Of a stretch of DNA of 41,501 nucleotides, positions 1-41,501 are shown one piece after another. The stretch is from IMG/VR virus record IMGVR_UViG_3300048930_000438, positions 1-41,501 of that record; one strand, 5' to 3'. Source of the stretch: a virus. Both the position numbers and the translations under genes were made by a program. Positions within the stretch are counted from its first letter, which is position 1. Each line of letters opens with the position of its first letter. The notes beneath the pieces are model-generated. The model saw only the letters and a list, made by a program, of their open reading frames with translations, was not told the origin of the DNA and searched no databases.

Positions 1-487
1 TGGTTTCCTGACGGTTAACTGACGGTTCATATAAGGTGTCGCCTTCCAAAACGACGCCAGATGTCACCCTTTCAGTACCCTGGGTGTCACCCTTTATGGC
101 GCCAGATGTCACCCTTTCCTCGCCAGAAAGGGTGTCGTGGGCGTCACCCTTTCGATCAGCAGAAACGGTGTCGTGAATGTCACCCTTTACGGGGCGGGAA
201 AGGGTGTCGTGAGCGTCACCCTTTGCAAAGGTGAAGCGATAGACCCGGGAGCGGCCGCGACCGCCCTCCAGACGGTCGTCGATGACCAGGACGCCTCGGT
301 TCACCAGGTCGCGGAGATAGCGCTGCACCTGGCGATCGCCGATGCCCGTGGCATGAGCGATCTCTGCAACGCTGGGGTAGACATTGGTTCCGTCGTGGTG
401 GGCGTGATCAGCCAGCTTGAGCAGGATCAGCTTCTCGACAGGTTGGAAGGGCTGGTCCCAGACCCACCCGGCAACCTTCACTGACAT
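1..487 (-). CDS. Replication initiator, N-terminal part (runs off left end)
   Basis: Leftward reading frame from ATG at 487, open to base 1, 162 codons visible. Residues 1-75 look like the winged-helix domain of phage/plasmid replication proteins (MSVKVAGWVWDQP, then a helix-turn-helix around EIAHATGIGDRQVQRYLRDL). From about residue 88 the protein has 12-residue repeats of KGDAHDTLS type that come from DNA repeats, so this stretch is probably a flexible linker. The matching C-terminal domain is at the other window end (40952-41501), read in the same direction. I infer one gene of about 345 residues cut by linearisation. The start lies 2 bases after the stop of the preceding gene. It is the best candidate for the lytic replication initiator. 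Family assignment is by pattern only. Confidence 0.8.
   Translation of the reverse strand, partial: MSVKVAGWVWDQPFQPVEKLILLKLADHAHHDGTNVYPSVAEIAHATGIGDRQVQRYLRDLVNRGVLVIDDRLEGGRGRSRVYRFTFAKGDAHDTLSRPVKGDIHDTVSADRKGDAHDTLSGEERVTSGAIKGDTQGTERVTSGVVLEGDTLYEPSVNRQET
63..224. repeat. Iteron array inside the initiator gene, candidate origin
   Basis: GTCACCCTTT occurs at 63-72, 86-95, 108-117, 143-152, 179-188 and 215-224. The inverted form AAAGGGTGTC is at 127-136 and 199-208, with a variant AAACGGTGTC at 163-172. The three rightmost pairs form dyads (10 bp arm, 6 bp spacer, 10 bp arm) repeated every 36 bp; the left copies are spaced 22-23 bp. Copies fall in two reading frames of the host gene (K-G-D and R-V-T), so the DNA rather than the protein is conserved. 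The arrangement resembles the lambda origin, whose iterons lie inside gene O. Confidence 0.8.
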
Positions 488-7095: not shown

Positions 7096-7225
7096 ACACT
7101 TTCCACACACGGCGAATTCGTGCCTGAGATTGCGGAAAAGCGCTGGAAAATATTACAGAAATTATTACTGTGACGTTCCACGATGCCAAAATCCGACCAC
7201 AAATGTGGAGCCGTTTTGGCATCGC
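7096..7225. other. AT-rich gap with long interrupted palindrome
   Basis: Gap between convergent genes. Arms CGATGCCAAAA (7181-7191) and TTTTGGCATCG (7214-7224) are perfect 11-base inverted repeats. The loop holds a second small hairpin (CCAC, AAAT, GTGG). Just left of it is an AT-rich stretch (about 7147-7171) containing ACAG...CTGT. A sequence close to a DnaA box, CTTTCCACA, is at 7099-7107. There is no T-run after the palindrome on either strand, so a simple terminator is not the best reading. A binding site or origin/partition element is possible. Confidence 0.5.
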
Positions 7226-7882
7226 TCACCGGCCCTTGCCCCAGCGCACATCCCAGTCTCGCTGGGCATCCAGCCACGCCGCCGCCTGCTGTGGATCCCT
7301 GCCCATGGCCGGGGTGATCTCAGGACGCTTGTCTCGGTTCCCCACGATCAACGCACGGTCCCTGACCGGGTCCAATTCTCCAAAATCCAAAATGGGCAAT
7401 CTCTTGTTAACTGTTTGTTGTAAGACTGTTTCTTGTGTGTTCGATTTTCGGACACGGGGGGTGGAGTCTTTCGGTACCCCCCCTGTTTGATTTTCGGACA
7501 CGGGTGTCCGGTCTTTTTCGCCAGCAAATCGAAGCTTGTAAGTGGTCGGCTGATCACCCTGTTCGATGTCGGTATTGCGCGCGGTGACGATTATGCCGCG
7601 GTCGACCAGGGACTTGATCGCTGTCACAGCTGTCGACTTCGAAAGGCCCGTGCCGCTGTCCATGCGCTCACCGTCGCGCTTGACGATGCCCTCACAGATC
7701 TGCTTCAGGCTGATGTCGTCGGCATCCTTCTTGAACCCGAACGTCCGCCGGAAGATATAGAGCAGCACCTTGACCTCTGACCCCGAGAGGGTGGCCAGGA
7801 GTTGGTCGAAGAACTCGTCAGGGACCTGGGTGTAGTTGGGGGAGGCGAAGCCGGCGAACTGTTCAGGTGGTGGCTTCGTCAT
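7226..7882 (-). CDS. RepO-like replication initiator (second replicon gene)
   Basis: 218 residues from ATG at 7882. The N-terminal domain matches phage replication protein O types: FASPNYTQVPDEFFDQLLATLSGSEVKVLLYIFRRTFGFKK, then SLKQICEG, then GTGLSKSTAVTAIKSLVDRGII, a winged helix. Residues 140-165 are a linker encoded by DNA repeats. The C-terminus ends AWLDAQRDWDVRWGKGR. It stands alone, far from the early operon with its own initiator. This is why I suggest it serves plasmid-state replication. The start lies in an inverted repeat (7882-7901). Confidence 0.7.
   Translation of the reverse strand: MTKPPPEQFAGFASPNYTQVPDEFFDQLLATLSGSEVKVLLYIFRRTFGFKKDADDISLKQICEGIVKRDGERMDSGTGLSKSTAVTAIKSLVDRGIIVTARNTDIEQGDQPTTYKLRFAGEKDRTPVSENQTGGVPKDSTPRVRKSNTQETVLQQTVNKRLPILDFGELDPVRDRALIVGNRDKRPEITPAMGRDPQQAAAWLDAQRDWDVRWGKGR
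7438..7504. repeat. In-gene direct repeats and AT-rich element, candidate second origin
   Basis: A 21-base repeat at 7438-7458 and 7484-7504 differs at one base (position 5). The copies are 46 bases apart, not a multiple of three, so they are read in different frames (PVSENQT and RVRKSNT). Between them lies a dyad GGGGGGT...ACCCCCC, and copy 2 ends in GGACAC-GG-GTGTCC. On the side toward the gene end, about 7380-7440 is clearly AT-richer than the genome and could be the unwinding region. Confidence 0.65.
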
Positions 7883-7901
7883 GACCGGACCAACCCGGTC
7901 A
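7882..7901. promoter_or_regulatory. Inverted repeat over the second initiator start
   Basis: TGACCGG (7882-7888) and CCGGTCA (7895-7901) flank a 6-base spacer directly upstream of the ATG. On the mRNA this hairpin would hold the GGTTGGT region upstream of the start. It could be an autoregulatory operator or a translation-limiting hairpin. CCGGTCA occurs again near 7970-7976. Confidence 0.45.
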
Positions 7902-8223
7902 GGGGGGTGCACAGGGTACGATGTCGCGTGCTACGATGCTCTACAGACACGAGATGCCTCCCTCAAGGCTCCGGTCAGACCCTCGGATGGTGTGTCCAGC
8001 ACCGCCGGGGGTCGACTCTTTGACTGTCATTGAGGGCGGGTGAACCAACTGAGCAATCAACGGTGATCGACTCGTTAGGCCTCAGTACCCTCGGATGTGG
8101 TCACAGTGTCGCTTTAGGGCAGGGGATAAAGCAACCCGTTTGCCCACAGTCACGCACGCGCGACGCTGCTTTGCGGATAAGAGTAATTACGCGCATCGTC
8201 CACCAGGGGCCAGATTCCGCCAC
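7902..8223. other. Intergenic region upstream of second initiator
   Basis: No convincing gene. It holds repeats: TACGATG twice about 15 bases apart near 7917-7937, CCCTCGGATG twice (near 7980 and 8090), and a dyad GCTTTA...TAAAGC near 8111-8131. No tRNA-like fold was found. Probably the promoter/control region of the gene at 7226-7882. Confidence 0.4.
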
Positions 8224-8920: not shown

Positions 8921-9002
8921 ATGGCCTACAGCAACGCGCCCCCATGCTGAGCTGAGGGCGCGTTCTTGGAGTTCGGAGAGGTCGACGGGTGAGGTCAGGA
9001 GA

Positions 9003-14146: not shown

Positions 14147-14527
14147 TTACGCCACGGCCAAGGTGATCGTAGCGGTCACCTGCTTGGTCTCGGCGCTGGA
14201 TTTGGTCCCCAGGGCTTCAACCTTGCGTGACATCATCACACCACTGCTGGAGGCGTTGAAGATCCCCCATTCGGCCCAGGCAAAGTTGGCATCGCCGGTC
14301 GCGAAGGTTGAGCGGAAGGTGATGACGTTGGTGGCCACGGTCGGATAGGTGGCGTCCATCGCCTTGCGGAACTTGTTGGTCGCGGCCTGCAGGTCGGTGT
14401 GGGCGGCCGAGAAGGCGGTCGAAGAGTCGCCGACCCCGATGTAGGAATTAGCGTTACTGAAGGCAGTGAACGCCCCGCCGGTGATGGCGAGGGCGAGCGC
14501 GTTGCGAAAGGCAGTGGTAAGGGCCAT
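14147..14527 (-). CDS. Phage tail protein (small, tip-associated family)
   Basis: 126 residues from ATG at 14527 with AAGGAG upstream. The pattern SYIGVGDSSTAFSAAHTDLQAATNKFRKAMDATYPT, then ITFRSTFATGDANFAWAEWGIFNASS, is widely seen in siphovirus tail proteins that lie beside fibre genes. Probably a structural tail component. Stop is followed 2 bases later by the start of the large tail-tip gene. Confidence 0.75.
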   Translation of the reverse strand: MALTTAFRNALALAITGGAFTAFSNANSYIGVGDSSTAFSAAHTDLQAATNKFRKAMDATYPTVATNVITFRSTFATGDANFAWAEWGIFNASSSGVMMSRKVEALGTKSSAETKQVTATITLAVA

Positions 14528-33542: not shown

Positions 33543-34736
33543 CTAGCCACGGATCGCAGGAAGGCCGCTCAGGGCCTCCCACCTGGCCACGATGACATCG
33601 CAGTACCCTGGATCGATCTCCATCGCTCTGACGGGCCGCTGGAGGCGCTCGCCGGCGAGGATCGCCGTGCCAGAGCCCGCATAGACGTCGGCGATCATTT
33701 CTCCGCTCTTGCTGAATCGCTCGATGAACCACTCGGCCAGCTGGATCGGCTTCTGGGTCGGATGCTCCCGCGGCCGCGATCGGTCGGCCGAGGCGAACCC
33801 ACGGTGGAACACCCGCACGATCTGGCGCTGATGGCGCTGCTTCGACCAGACGAGCTCGAAGCTCGAGCCGATCATCCGCTCGGCCCCCTCCGACACGCGA
33901 CCCTCGGCCGTCACACACTTGTCCCAGACGAACATGCCGCCGTTTCGGGGGAGCTGGCTGGCGTAGTAGTCGGCTCCGAACAGGAAGATCTCCGACGTCT
34001 TCCGGAAGGCGCGCAGCAGCGGCCGCGGATCGAAAGGCCGGTCGTCACCCTCCACGGCCTCGAAGGCCCGGCCCCGGATCCCCTCCCCCGTCGCCCCACG
34101 AGCGCGGCCGGTGTAGTCGGTCTCGAGATCCATCCCGTACGGTGGATCCGTCCACACCATTGCCGGGTTATGTCCATCGAGTAGGCGAGCCAGGTCGTCG
34201 GCCGACGTCGCATCACCGCACAGCAATCGGTGATCGCCCAGGGTCCAGAGGTCACCTGGTTGGGTGATCGGCTCGGCCGGAACCTCAGGGGCCTCATCTG
34301 GCCCAGGCGGGGCCGGGTCCGGCCCCTCTTCCTCATCAGGGCCGAGCAACGCCGCCAACTCGTCATCAGTGAAGCCCCAGGACAGGTCGGCACCGTCGTC
34401 GAGCGCCAGCTGCAGCTCCTCAAGGTCCCATTCGCTGGTCTCGGTGGTGCGGTTGTCGGCAATGGCCAGCTCCCGCTTCGCCTCATCGGAGAGGCCCACC
34501 AGGCGCACGGCGGTGATCGTGCCGGGTTTCGCATCGATCACCTGCACGTCAGTGAAGCCGGCACGTTTCGCGGCCTCGGTGACGCCGTGGCCGGCGATGA
34601 TCTGGTCGTTTTCATCGATCAGGATCGAGCGGCCGCCGCCGTGGTGCTCGAGGGAGTGCTGGATCATCCCAAGGTTGCGCTCGTCGTGCTTGCGGGCGTT
34701 GTGGGGATCCGGGGTCAGGTCCTCAAGCCTGGTCAT
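33543..34736 (-). CDS. ParB-domain DNA methyltransferase
   Basis: 397 residues from ATG at 34736. Residues 1-95 form a ParB/Srx-like domain (LTPDPHNARKHDERNLG, IIAGHGVTEAAKRAG). The methyltransferase follows: DPPYGMD at 197-203 and YAGSGT at 352-357, in the order catalytic motif then SAM-binding motif, a beta-class arrangement for N6-adenine or N4-cytosine. No linked restriction gene. Probably protects phage DNA from host restriction or marks packaging/replication; the target is unknown. First large gene of the late operon. Confidence 0.85.
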   Translation of the reverse strand: MTRLEDLTPDPHNARKHDERNLGMIQHSLEHHGGGRSILIDENDQIIAGHGVTEAAKRAGFTDVQVIDAKPGTITAVRLVGLSDEAKRELAIADNRTTETSEWDLEELQLALDDGADLSWGFTDDELAALLGPDEEEGPDPAPPGPDEAPEVPAEPITQPGDLWTLGDHRLLCGDATSADDLARLLDGHNPAMVWTDPPYGMDLETDYTGRARGATGEGIRGRAFEAVEGDDRPFDPRPLLRAFRKTSEIFLFGADYYASQLPRNGGMFVWDKCVTAEGRVSEGAERMIGSSFELVWSKQRHQRQIVRVFHRGFASADRSRPREHPTQKPIQLAEWFIERFSKSGEMIADVYAGSGTAILAGERLQRPVRAMEIDPGYCDVIVARWEALSGLPAIRG

Positions 34737-34974
34737 CGTCGCCGCTGTCTGCAGGTAGCGCCGGCTCAAGAGCCGTCTCGACAATCTGGGCCGGGCCCTC
34801 GTAGACGAACGGTGTGTCCAGGTGCAGCACCACGGTCGGTGACGGCCGGCTGAAATCGAGCTGGATCCGGTAGACGTTGAGCAGCTTTTCGCCGGTCTCC
34901 AGGTCAAAGACCTCAGCGGTGCGACCGCTGCCCTGGGACACGAGGCGGACGCCACGGGTGGGAAGCTCTGACAT
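34723..34974 (-). CDS. Small protein upstream of methyltransferase
   Basis: 83 residues from ATG at 34974 with AGGAG upstream; longer frames cross the promoter. MSELPTRGVRLVSQGSGRTAEVFDLETGEKLLNVYRIQLDF then PTVVLHLDTPFVYEGPAQIVE is a beta-rich small protein that resembles small phage proteins placed beside methyltransferases. No family name assigned. Overlaps the methyltransferase start by 14 bases. Confidence 0.6.
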   Translation of the reverse strand: MSELPTRGVRLVSQGSGRTAEVFDLETGEKLLNVYRIQLDFSRPSPTVVLHLDTPFVYEGPAQIVETALEPALPADSGDDDQA

Positions 34975-35001
34975 GGGGGCTCCTGCTTCGATGCAACAGA
35001 C

Positions 35002-35104
35002 GTCATATGCACATGACGCAATAAGCACAGAATAGCAGGGTATGAAACTCGCAACCCAGAGCCAACCAGACAGATCCCCGGGAGCTATGCGCTCACCGGG
35101 GATC
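35002..35104 (-). promoter_or_regulatory. Late-operon control region with hairpin
   Basis: Perfect arms GATCCCCGG (35073-35081) and CCGGGGATC (35096-35104) with an inner GAGC/GCTC stem, probably ending transcription of the accessory gene at 35156. Downstream on the minus strand is TATGACG (from 35007), similar to TATGATG at other units, within a dyad GTCAT...ATGAC. The start codon at 34974 follows about 30 bases later. Confidence 0.45.
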
Positions 35105-38778: not shown

Positions 38779-39011
38779 AGCGCACCGCCGAACATGTCCT
38801 GCTGGCCCTGGGCGCGAAGCAGTCGATCAGGATGGTCAGCCCAGCCCTGCATCTCTTCCAGAAGCGCAGAGCAGGTGCGGACGTCCATAGCGGTCGGCTC
38901 GGAACCGTAGGTGGCAATGCAGTAACCGGCGAACCAGTCGGCCGAGAGGTGGAGGCGCAACGTCAGCGCCTCCACGTACTCGAGCTGGCGTTCCGTGGCG
39001 GGGTAGCTCAC
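38775..39011 (-). CDS. Small early protein
   Basis: 78 residues from GTG at 39011 (GTGA overlap with upstream stop). VSYPATERQLEYVEALTLRLHLSADWFAGYCIATYG then AMDVRTCSALLEEMQGW is the short helical pattern (RQLxYVxxLxxRL ... SxLIExL) often found at the C-terminus of phage recombination proteins, here as a free protein. No catalytic motif. Confidence 0.6.
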   Translation of the reverse strand: MSYPATERQLEYVEALTLRLHLSADWFAGYCIATYGSEPTAMDVRTCSALLEEMQGWADHPDRLLRAQGQQDMFGGAL

Positions 39012-39766
39012 GACCGCCTCCCGTTCACCCACGAGTTGCGCACATGGATCGCCTGCACCTGGGGCAAGCACTCGGCCAGCAGCTCGGCCATGGCCGGGTG
39101 GGGGAGGCGGCGGCGATGAACCGGCTCATCGAGCGGGAAGCCCATCGTGGCCCGGACCACCACCCCAAATCGCCGGCACACACCCTCAACCGGTCGCTTT
39201 GTCTCACCTCGCTCCCACTTCAGCAGGCTTCCGAAGCTGGTATCGGTCAGGCGCACGATCTCGGCCTTGGAGAGACCCCGCCGGCGGAGCAGCAGAATCG
39301 AGTCCTGGAGGAATTTGCGGCGCTCCGCAAACACCTTTCGCTGCTGCTTCTGTTTGCGCTTGAGGCGACGTTCCTGATCGGCGATAGCCCGCTCCAGAGT
39401 CGAGGTTCGCTTCGCATACCGGTCCCGGTCGATCTCCCGGGTGCAGGGCTTGCAGTAGGCCCAGAACGTATGTGGCCGATTCGGGTGGCGCTTGAAGTCC
39501 TCGGCCCCCCGATAGCTCTGGCAGCGGTTGCACCAGACGTCACCACGAGCGTTGTACCGAGGGTGTCGATCGCGACCGCCACGGGCTTTCCTGGTCCGGC
39601 GCTGAGCATCGGCGATGCACCGCTTGCAGGTCCGCCGGCGGCCGGCCGTGTGGTTGCCCGAGCGGTGAAAGAACTCGAGGTGCAGGGTGCGGTGGCAGAC
39701 CTCACAGACGCGCGTCTCCGGGCTCATACGAACCTCTGACTCGTGGAGGATCTCGATGGTCATCAT
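39008..39766 (-). CDS. Zinc-finger protein with XRE-like C-terminal region
   Basis: About 252 residues from ATG at 39766 (ATG 39763 also possible). Three Cys clusters in the first 110 residues (CEVCHRTLHLEFFHRSG; CKRCIADAQRR; CNRCQSYRGAEDF; CKPCTREIDRDRY), in the style of phage HNH-linked zinc fingers. Then a long basic coiled coil (QERRLKRKQKQQRKVFAERRKF). The C-terminus has LSKAEIVRLTDTSFGSLLKWERGETKRP, an XRE-like helix-turn-helix. Possible DNA-binding early regulator. Confidence 0.65.
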   Translation of the reverse strand: MMTIEILHESEVRMSPETRVCEVCHRTLHLEFFHRSGNHTAGRRRTCKRCIADAQRRTRKARGGRDRHPRYNARGDVWCNRCQSYRGAEDFKRHPNRPHTFWAYCKPCTREIDRDRYAKRTSTLERAIADQERRLKRKQKQQRKVFAERRKFLQDSILLLRRRGLSKAEIVRLTDTSFGSLLKWERGETKRPVEGVCRRFGVVVRATMGFPLDEPVHRRRLPHPAMAELLAECLPQVQAIHVRNSWVNGRRS

Positions 39767-40080
39767 CGCCGCACCCCCCGCTGCCGACGTCGATTGCCGG
39801 CACAACGCCGCATGACGTGAGCCACCTCGAGCAAGGTCCGACTGGTCGGATCCGGCGCAATCCGTGCTCGAGCTGCGAGGGCATCGTGGGTGTGGTTGGC
39901 GCCAGCCAGCTGGCGACGTCGCAAGGTCGCCAGCCCCTCGGGTGTGATATGGGTCTCCAAATCACCCGTGACGCGGGAGATGCGCCGGAAGACTCCCGGC
40001 GCGATCTCGATCGGTCCACTGGCCTGGATCCGGAATCGCTGAACATACGGAGCTTCGGGTGCCAGATGGGTCGCCATCAC
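39763..40080 (-). CDS. Hypothetical early protein
   Basis: 105 residues from GTG at 40080 or ATG at 40077, coupled to the upstream stop. N-terminal beta strands (YVQRFRIQASGPIEIAPGVFRRISRVTGDLETHITPEGLATLRRR) and a basic, Arg-rich C-terminus (MRRCAGNRRRQRGVRR) that could bind nucleic acid. No family recognised. Confidence 0.6.
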   Translation of the reverse strand: MMATHLAPEAPYVQRFRIQASGPIEIAPGVFRRISRVTGDLETHITPEGLATLRRRQLAGANHTHDALAARARIAPDPTSRTLLEVAHVMRRCAGNRRRQRGVRR

Positions 40081-40951: not shown

Positions 40952-41501
40952 TCAACGGTTGTGCTGGTCCCAGTCCTTCTGGAGCTTCAGCCAGGCAGCG
41001 AACTCTTCGGCCGATACGGTGCCAACCGGGGGGACGATGGGGCGGTGGATCCGGTCGCGCAGCATGTCGCCACGATCACGGATCGGGTGCTTCCCAGCGA
41101 ACCAGACCTCAGGCGGCATCGGCGATGGCACGGCTAATCGCCGGCCTTCGCTGGGTTGTGCCTTGGGTGCAGACGTCGGGGGAGGGGTCGGCGGCCGCGA
41201 GCTCGATCGACGGGAGCGGGTACGGGGGATCTGGGCCCCACCACGTTGTTCGCGCCTCTTGGCCTCGTTGCGAATCCACACGCGCCAGGTCGCTTCCCAG
41301 TCCAGGTGGGTCTTCGAGCTCGATCGCCAGTAATCCACGAACTGCTCGAATTCGAACTCGATCTCGTCATCGGTGAAGTTGAGGGCCTCTCCCACCGCGG
41401 CCATGGCACTGGTGAGGCTGAAGTTGTCGGGGATCCGCGTGGGCTGGTTTTTCGGAGTCGCTTTTCTGCCCGATTTCGTCTCGGATTTGGTGGGGCGTTC
41501 A
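40952..41501 (-). CDS. Replication initiator, C-terminal part (runs off right end)
   Basis: Leftward frame open from the window end to TGA at 40952, 182 residues visible. It contains TRIPDNFSLTSAMAAVGEALNF, then EFEFEQFVDYWRSSSKTHLDWEATWRVWIRNEAKRREQ. This F-x-x-Y-W ... D-W-x-x-T-W-x-x-W-I-R-N pattern is the C-terminal domain of phage HTH replication proteins. The upstream residues (ERPTKSETKSGRKATPKNQ) are linker-like and fit the end of the left-hand part (EPSVNRQET). Joining the ends directly leaves the frame one base short. The downstream gene starts 20 bases later. Confidence 0.75.
   Translation of the reverse strand, partial: ERPTKSETKSGRKATPKNQPTRIPDNFSLTSAMAAVGEALNFTDDEIEFEFEQFVDYWRSSSKTHLDWEATWRVWIRNEAKRREQRGGAQIPRTRSRRSSSRPPTPPPTSAPKAQPSEGRRLAVPSPMPPEVWFAGKHPIRDRGDMLRDRIHRPIVPPVGTVSAEEFAAWLKLQKDWDQHNR

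Follow-up and report, generated by a model that had tools for sequence, protein, structure and literature searches.

A putative lambda-type replication origin with dyad-forming iterons inside the O-like initiator gene of a phage

Introduction

Why would a gene for a phage replication initiator carry a short DNA word repeated many times, on both strands, within its own coding sequence? The question is raised by positions 63-224 of the virus record analysed here, which we call the window: the whole record of 41,501 bases, classed as linear. Origins embedded in initiator genes have been described before. The origin of lambda and the Stx phages occupies the central part of gene O and consists of iterons and an AT-rich tract, with binding shown (PMC7466680). 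The origin oriL of SPP1 lies inside gene 38 (PMC6316719), and in the staphylococcal plasmid pSK41 the winged-helix N-terminal domain of Rep binds four boxes located centrally within rep, the encoded linker being dispensable (PMC5703833). We asked what the repeats of the window are, whether they are kept as DNA or as peptide, and how far the same arrangement extends among other initiators.

Results

The initiator gene that carries the repeats (P0001) appears to be divided between the two ends of the contig:

2-487, minus strand: 5' part of the O-like initiator gene, start codon 485-487, running off the left contig edge; matches HTH_36, phrog_391 and phrog_1032
233-487, minus strand: winged-helix DNA-binding domain, residues 1-85, by AlphaFold2 pLDDT; Pfam match at residues 16-65
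40952-41500, minus strand: probable C-terminal part of the same gene; matches phrog_1408 (1.5e-9), phrog_3992 (2.2e-9) and positions 182-260 of phrog_1032

Judged by its family matches (phrog_391, 1.2e-17; phrog_1032, 8.1e-17; HTH_36, PF13730, 1.5e-12), P0001 is a winged-helix, O-like phage replication initiator. Its Pfam matches included HTH_36 instead of Phage_rep_O (PF04492), in which its N-terminal domain is unlike that of lambda O, and the RepA_N domain (PF06970) was absent from them up to E=1. AlphaFold2, run with a 45-row alignment of loci, predicted a confident winged helix over residues 1-85, with pLDDT mostly above 90 over residues 1-70, and a disordered stretch (pLDDT about 50-58) where the repeats are encoded. 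A sequence search found no solved structure for the initiator, Foldseek returned generic winged helices only (E>0.007), and neither a DNA search with the window nor a protein search with the whole of P0001 found close relatives. The C-terminal part additionally has a weak DnaT-like match (PF17948), below the cutoff.

The two halves of the gene lie on the same strand with the reading frame off by one base across the contig join, and a search for a terminal repeat of the contig found none. With the gene apparently split in this way, it is probable that the genome is circular and that the contig opens it within the initiator gene, in the origin region, a few bases having been dropped or misread there. 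A protein matching Lar-like restriction alleviation and endonuclease VII/HNH families is encoded beside the initiator region (39008-39805, minus strand). The gene at 33543-35054 (minus strand) encodes a ParB-like partition/nuclease domain fused to a DNA methyltransferase (phrog_498, phrog_620).

The repeats themselves are arranged as follows:

63-72, minus strand: iteron AAAGGGTGAC, single direct copy, read R-V-T
86-95, minus strand: iteron AAAGGGTGAC, single direct copy, read K-G-D
108-117, minus strand: iteron AAAGGGTGAC, single direct copy, read R-V-T
127-152: dyad, arms 127-136 (AAAGGGTGTC on the plus strand) and 143-152 (AAAGGGTGAC on the minus strand), 6 bp between them
163-188: dyad with one degenerate arm, 163-172 (AAACGGTGTC on the plus strand), and an exact arm, 179-188
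199-224: dyad, arms 199-208 (plus strand) and 215-224 (minus strand)
1-60: AT-richer tract, candidate unwinding region, downstream of the iterons in the gene and ending at the contig edge

Six exact copies of GTCACCCTTT start at 63, 86, 108, 143, 179 and 215. The initial annotation had counted six direct and three inverted copies; the six direct ones stand, and two inverted copies (127-136 and 199-208) have one mismatch each, so that a third is reached only if AAACGGTGTC at 163-172, with one further mismatch (two in all), is counted. On the gene strand, three 26-bp dyads, each built of AAAGGGTGAC, 6 bp and GACACCCTTT, come first (199-224, 163-188 and 127-152), followed by the three single copies of AAAGGGTGAC (108, 86 and 63). 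The spacing given earlier, 36 bp for the dyads and about 22 bp for the single copies, was confirmed: the D1 copies (126, 162 and 198) are 36 bp apart and the D2 copies (55, 78 and 100) are 23 and 22 bp apart. With at most one mismatch the iteron occurs nine times in the 41.5-kb window, eight of these within the 162-bp array, against a mean of 1.45 and a largest count of 6 when the whole window was dinucleotide-shuffled 100 times. The tract at 1-60 is 50% AT over 60 bp, which is the 97.7th percentile of the contig, and is then cut by the contig end. Just past the iterons, at 9-28, stands a direct repeat TGACGGTT around GTTAAC that codes for E-P-S-V-N-R-Q; similar peptide runs occur at the same place in several relatives, which makes this repeat a possible second DNA element.

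The encoded protein does contain three repeated 12-residue units, and the DNA repeats could accordingly be a side effect of selection acting on a peptide repeat, K-G-D-x-H-D-T. This explanation is very unlikely. Of the six direct copies, four are in phase 2 (K-G-D) and two in phase 1 (R-V-T), while the inverted copies, on the opposite strand, read D-T-L/V in the gene frame. In 300 codon shuffles that preserve the protein, no 8-mer exceeded 5 copies, compared with 8 observed; for 10-mers the shuffles gave at most 4 copies (mean 1.96) and the gene has 6. The gene O of lambda, used as a positive control, gave p=0.004 in the codon-shuffle test. Because the shuffles never recreate the repeats and the stretch they encode is predicted to be a disordered linker, selection of the array as DNA, not as peptide, is well supported. 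This is what the initial annotation had proposed from the K-G-D and R-V-T readings, and its view of the 12-residue peptide repeats as a by-product is borne out in the same way. The relatives described below likewise keep the DNA word with R-V-T, K-G-D, K-G-C or K-G-W; conserved peptide over scrambled DNA, sought among them as the refuting case, was found reversed, with the DNA kept and the peptide phases changing.

To see how common such repeats are, initiators were chosen by protein only, from a winged-helix alignment (A1) compared with viral contigs, from tblastn hits and from phrog families in genomes; since A1 was itself built from repeat-bearing genes, this sample leans to their winged-helix type. 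A 7-mer repeated beyond codon shuffles (p<0.01) was present in 35 of the 59 non-redundant initiators so selected. With the longest ORF neighbouring each locus as a control, the same test was positive in one of 55. Copies in two or more codon phases of a single strand were found in 32 of the 35 genes, which further argues against selection for a peptide. Allowing one mismatch, about 15 of the protein-selected genes have at least four copies of AAAGGGTGNC, frequently a single dyad with direct copies after it; other genes have different words, many of which are built on GGGTG (GGGTGACA, GGGTGCA, GGGTGAA) or on GGGCGAC.

Scanning DNA for pairs of AAAGGGTGNC words at a spacing of 21-23 bp, together with dyad scans, gave 107 winged-helix ORFs overlapping AAAGGGTGNC repeats, 82 of them non-redundant. 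The dyad-only scan was of little use as a locus finder, most of its hits being unrelated hairpins that lie outside initiator genes and are probably terminators; consequently, only loci with an initiator domain were kept. Nineteen loci lie in bacterial genome contigs of seven phyla, mostly Pseudomonadota and then Chloroflexota, with single loci in Acidobacteriota, Actinomycetota, Bacillota, Spirochaetota and Verrucomicrobiota, although several of these contigs are metagenome bins and the phylum assignments may therefore be wrong in places. On the sense strand of AAAGGGTGNC-bearing initiator genes, which were partly picked for having the repeat, 189 copies read K-G-D, 99 read R-V-T and 16 are in the third phase. 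Several phases are used in 63 of the 82 non-redundant genes. The free base is A in 235 of the 288 K-G-D and R-V-T copies, and in third-phase copies, where A would make TGA, it is always T, G or C. The modal spacing is 21-22 bp, and the 50 bp past the last iteron have an AT content of 0.50-0.56 against a baseline of about 0.39. A search for the dyads inside the initiator genes of related phages, suggested in the initial annotation, shows that they do recur there, usually one per gene; at least two are found in 13 of the 107 genes, the window gene included, and L147/L290 show the 36-bp dyad period independently.

Iteron type showed a strong raw association with residues of the wing and recognition helix (a GGRG wing and one recognition-helix Arg); with relatedness controlled it was unconfirmed, as only three independent pairs on supported branches remained. 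Direct AAAGGGTGNC repeats at 21-23 bp spacing were also seen in L135, L210, L212 (a Tannerella bin) and many Omnitrophota loci (e.g. L138), at several places per single genome, and a search found no initiator domain there; these may be another repeat family.

Two isolate phages picked by protein only, Mesorhizobium phage vB_MseS-P1 and Bordetella phage vB_BbrS_PHB09, have genes of the same family with AAGGGTGAC and AAAGGGTGCA arrays. As in the window, these combine opposed copies with direct copies in two phases; they differ in the last bases of the iteron (GCA in PHB09) and in having no triple dyads. Such arrays bear on the possibility that the repeats of the window arose by neutral local tandem duplication or are an assembly artefact of the contig end. 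The array does adjoin the contig edge and does contain identical 19-nt units (GAAAGGGTGACATCTGGCG); yet the same word and spacing are found, the sequence between the copies having diverged, in dozens of unrelated contigs and in these isolates, and we regard this origin of the array as extremely unlikely.

The window encodes a second, different initiator (P0004):

7226-7912, minus strand: second initiator, Phage_rep_O (PF04492, above the cutoff) and phrog_678
7438-7458, minus strand: repeat CCCGTGTCCGAAAATCGAACA, read R-V-R-K-S-N
7484-7504, minus strand: repeat CCCGTGTCCGAAAATCAAACA, read V-S-E-N-Q

Within this gene the 16-nt sequence CCCGTGTCCGAAAATC is repeated exactly, its copies lying in two codon phases; the longest repeat in 500 codon shuffles was 12 nt. 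The most AT-rich stretches of the contig (7147 and 7389) lie in or beside it and not at the 63-224 array. Among 30 records with a AAAGGGTG-type initiator, the window counted, the window alone had two O-like matches to phrog_678 (E of at most 1e-8). In an unrelated contig (L446, 1676-1732), the GTGTCCGAAAATC word of the second initiator occurs three times inside another HTH gene, and the repeat there, GTGTCCGAAAATCGGAC, uses all three codon phases (V-S-E-N-R, R-V-R-K-S-D and C-P-K-I-G). The window may hold either a pair of origins or a single origin accompanied by a regulatory or defunct module.

Discussion

The repeats at 63-224 are very probably the initiator-binding array of a lambda-type origin located within the coding sequence of the initiator itself. 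The O-like family match and a repetition beyond codon expectation both speak for the lambda layout proposed in the initial annotation. We are less confident that the array is the main origin of the phage, because the most AT-rich DNA lies in or beside the second initiator. The GC skew, suggested earlier as a way to map the start of replication, does not turn at the array: its cumulative minimum is at 8943 and the detrended one at 14278, in a genome where skew is weak.

What follows on binding and its stoichiometry, on melting and helicase loading, and on the actual use of the array as an origin is inferred. The N-terminal winged helix would bind each 10-bp AAAGGGTGNC site, with two protomers per dyad and one per single copy, the single copies recurring on one face of the helix at intervals of roughly two turns. 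The resulting nucleoprotein array would strain the AT-richer DNA just downstream, and the DnaT-like C-terminal part may help to load the replicative helicase. As the encoded linker peptide would be free to vary, iterons could occupy any codon phase that gives no stop. The mechanism proposed is the same as in the lambda, SPP1 and pSK41 precedents.

As in the lambda origin, the iterons are placed centrally in the initiator gene at intervals of about 20-24 bp and in several phases; the AT-richer DNA after them is a candidate counterpart of the lambda AT tract. The four annotated iterons of lambda themselves are in codon phases 0, 2, 2 and 1, with the AT tract just past iteron 4; therefore multi-phase use is not special to the phage of the window. 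The Stx-phage origins have 4-6 iterons inside gene O. The lambda iteron is an 18-bp imperfect palindrome of another sequence, whereas that of the window is a 10-bp asymmetric word arranged in dyads and single copies, so the description of the layout as that of lambda with a different, dyad-based repeat holds, the dyads being present in relatives as well. SPP1 oriL is similar in having its repeats inside the initiator gene, there direct repeats with an AT-rich unwinding element (PMC6316719); SPP1 differs in possessing a second origin, oriR, outside that gene. pSK41 differs in being a plasmid with a Rep of the RepA_N family, whose C-terminal domain contacts DnaG.

An alternative is that the sites are operators through which the winged-helix protein represses or times its own gene, replication starting elsewhere, for example at the second initiator. 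Winged helices do resemble repressors, and the second Phage_rep_O gene has its own two-phase repeat and, at 7147-7500, the most AT-rich DNA of the contig. The sites, however, lie 260-425 bp inside the coding sequence and not at a promoter, the protein belongs to O-like initiator families with a DnaT-like C-terminal part, and in relatives the AT peak follows the array. We consider regulation of this kind unlikely, and prefer the intragenic origin.

A literature search of partial coverage found no paper naming the AAAGGGTGNC iteron and, among the papers listed, no phage origin paper by its letters. What is new here is how widely a single iteron is shared, the expansion of the dyads and the second initiator with its own two-phase repeat. 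A bolder proposal can be made only tentatively, and we hold it to be doubtful as a whole: that a very large family of winged-helix initiators, from phages across many bacterial phyla, has AAAGGGTGNC as its ancestral or near-universal specificity, and that the phage has two complete intragenic origins with unrelated iterons which it uses alternatively. If this were true, the gene would have retained the word while its codon phase changed, and the choice between the origins might depend, for example, on the host or the stage of the life cycle.

Codon-independent, multi-phase repeats inside O-like genes may allow origins to be placed from sequence in many uncultured phages. One DNA word becomes tied to a large initiator family, so that its specificity, and the drift of that specificity through GGGTGAC, GGGTGCA, GGGTGAA and GGGCGAC, would be directly testable by binding assays. 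If a phage does carry two intragenic initiator/origin modules, it would, in turn, offer a natural test case for the use of two origins by a single genome.
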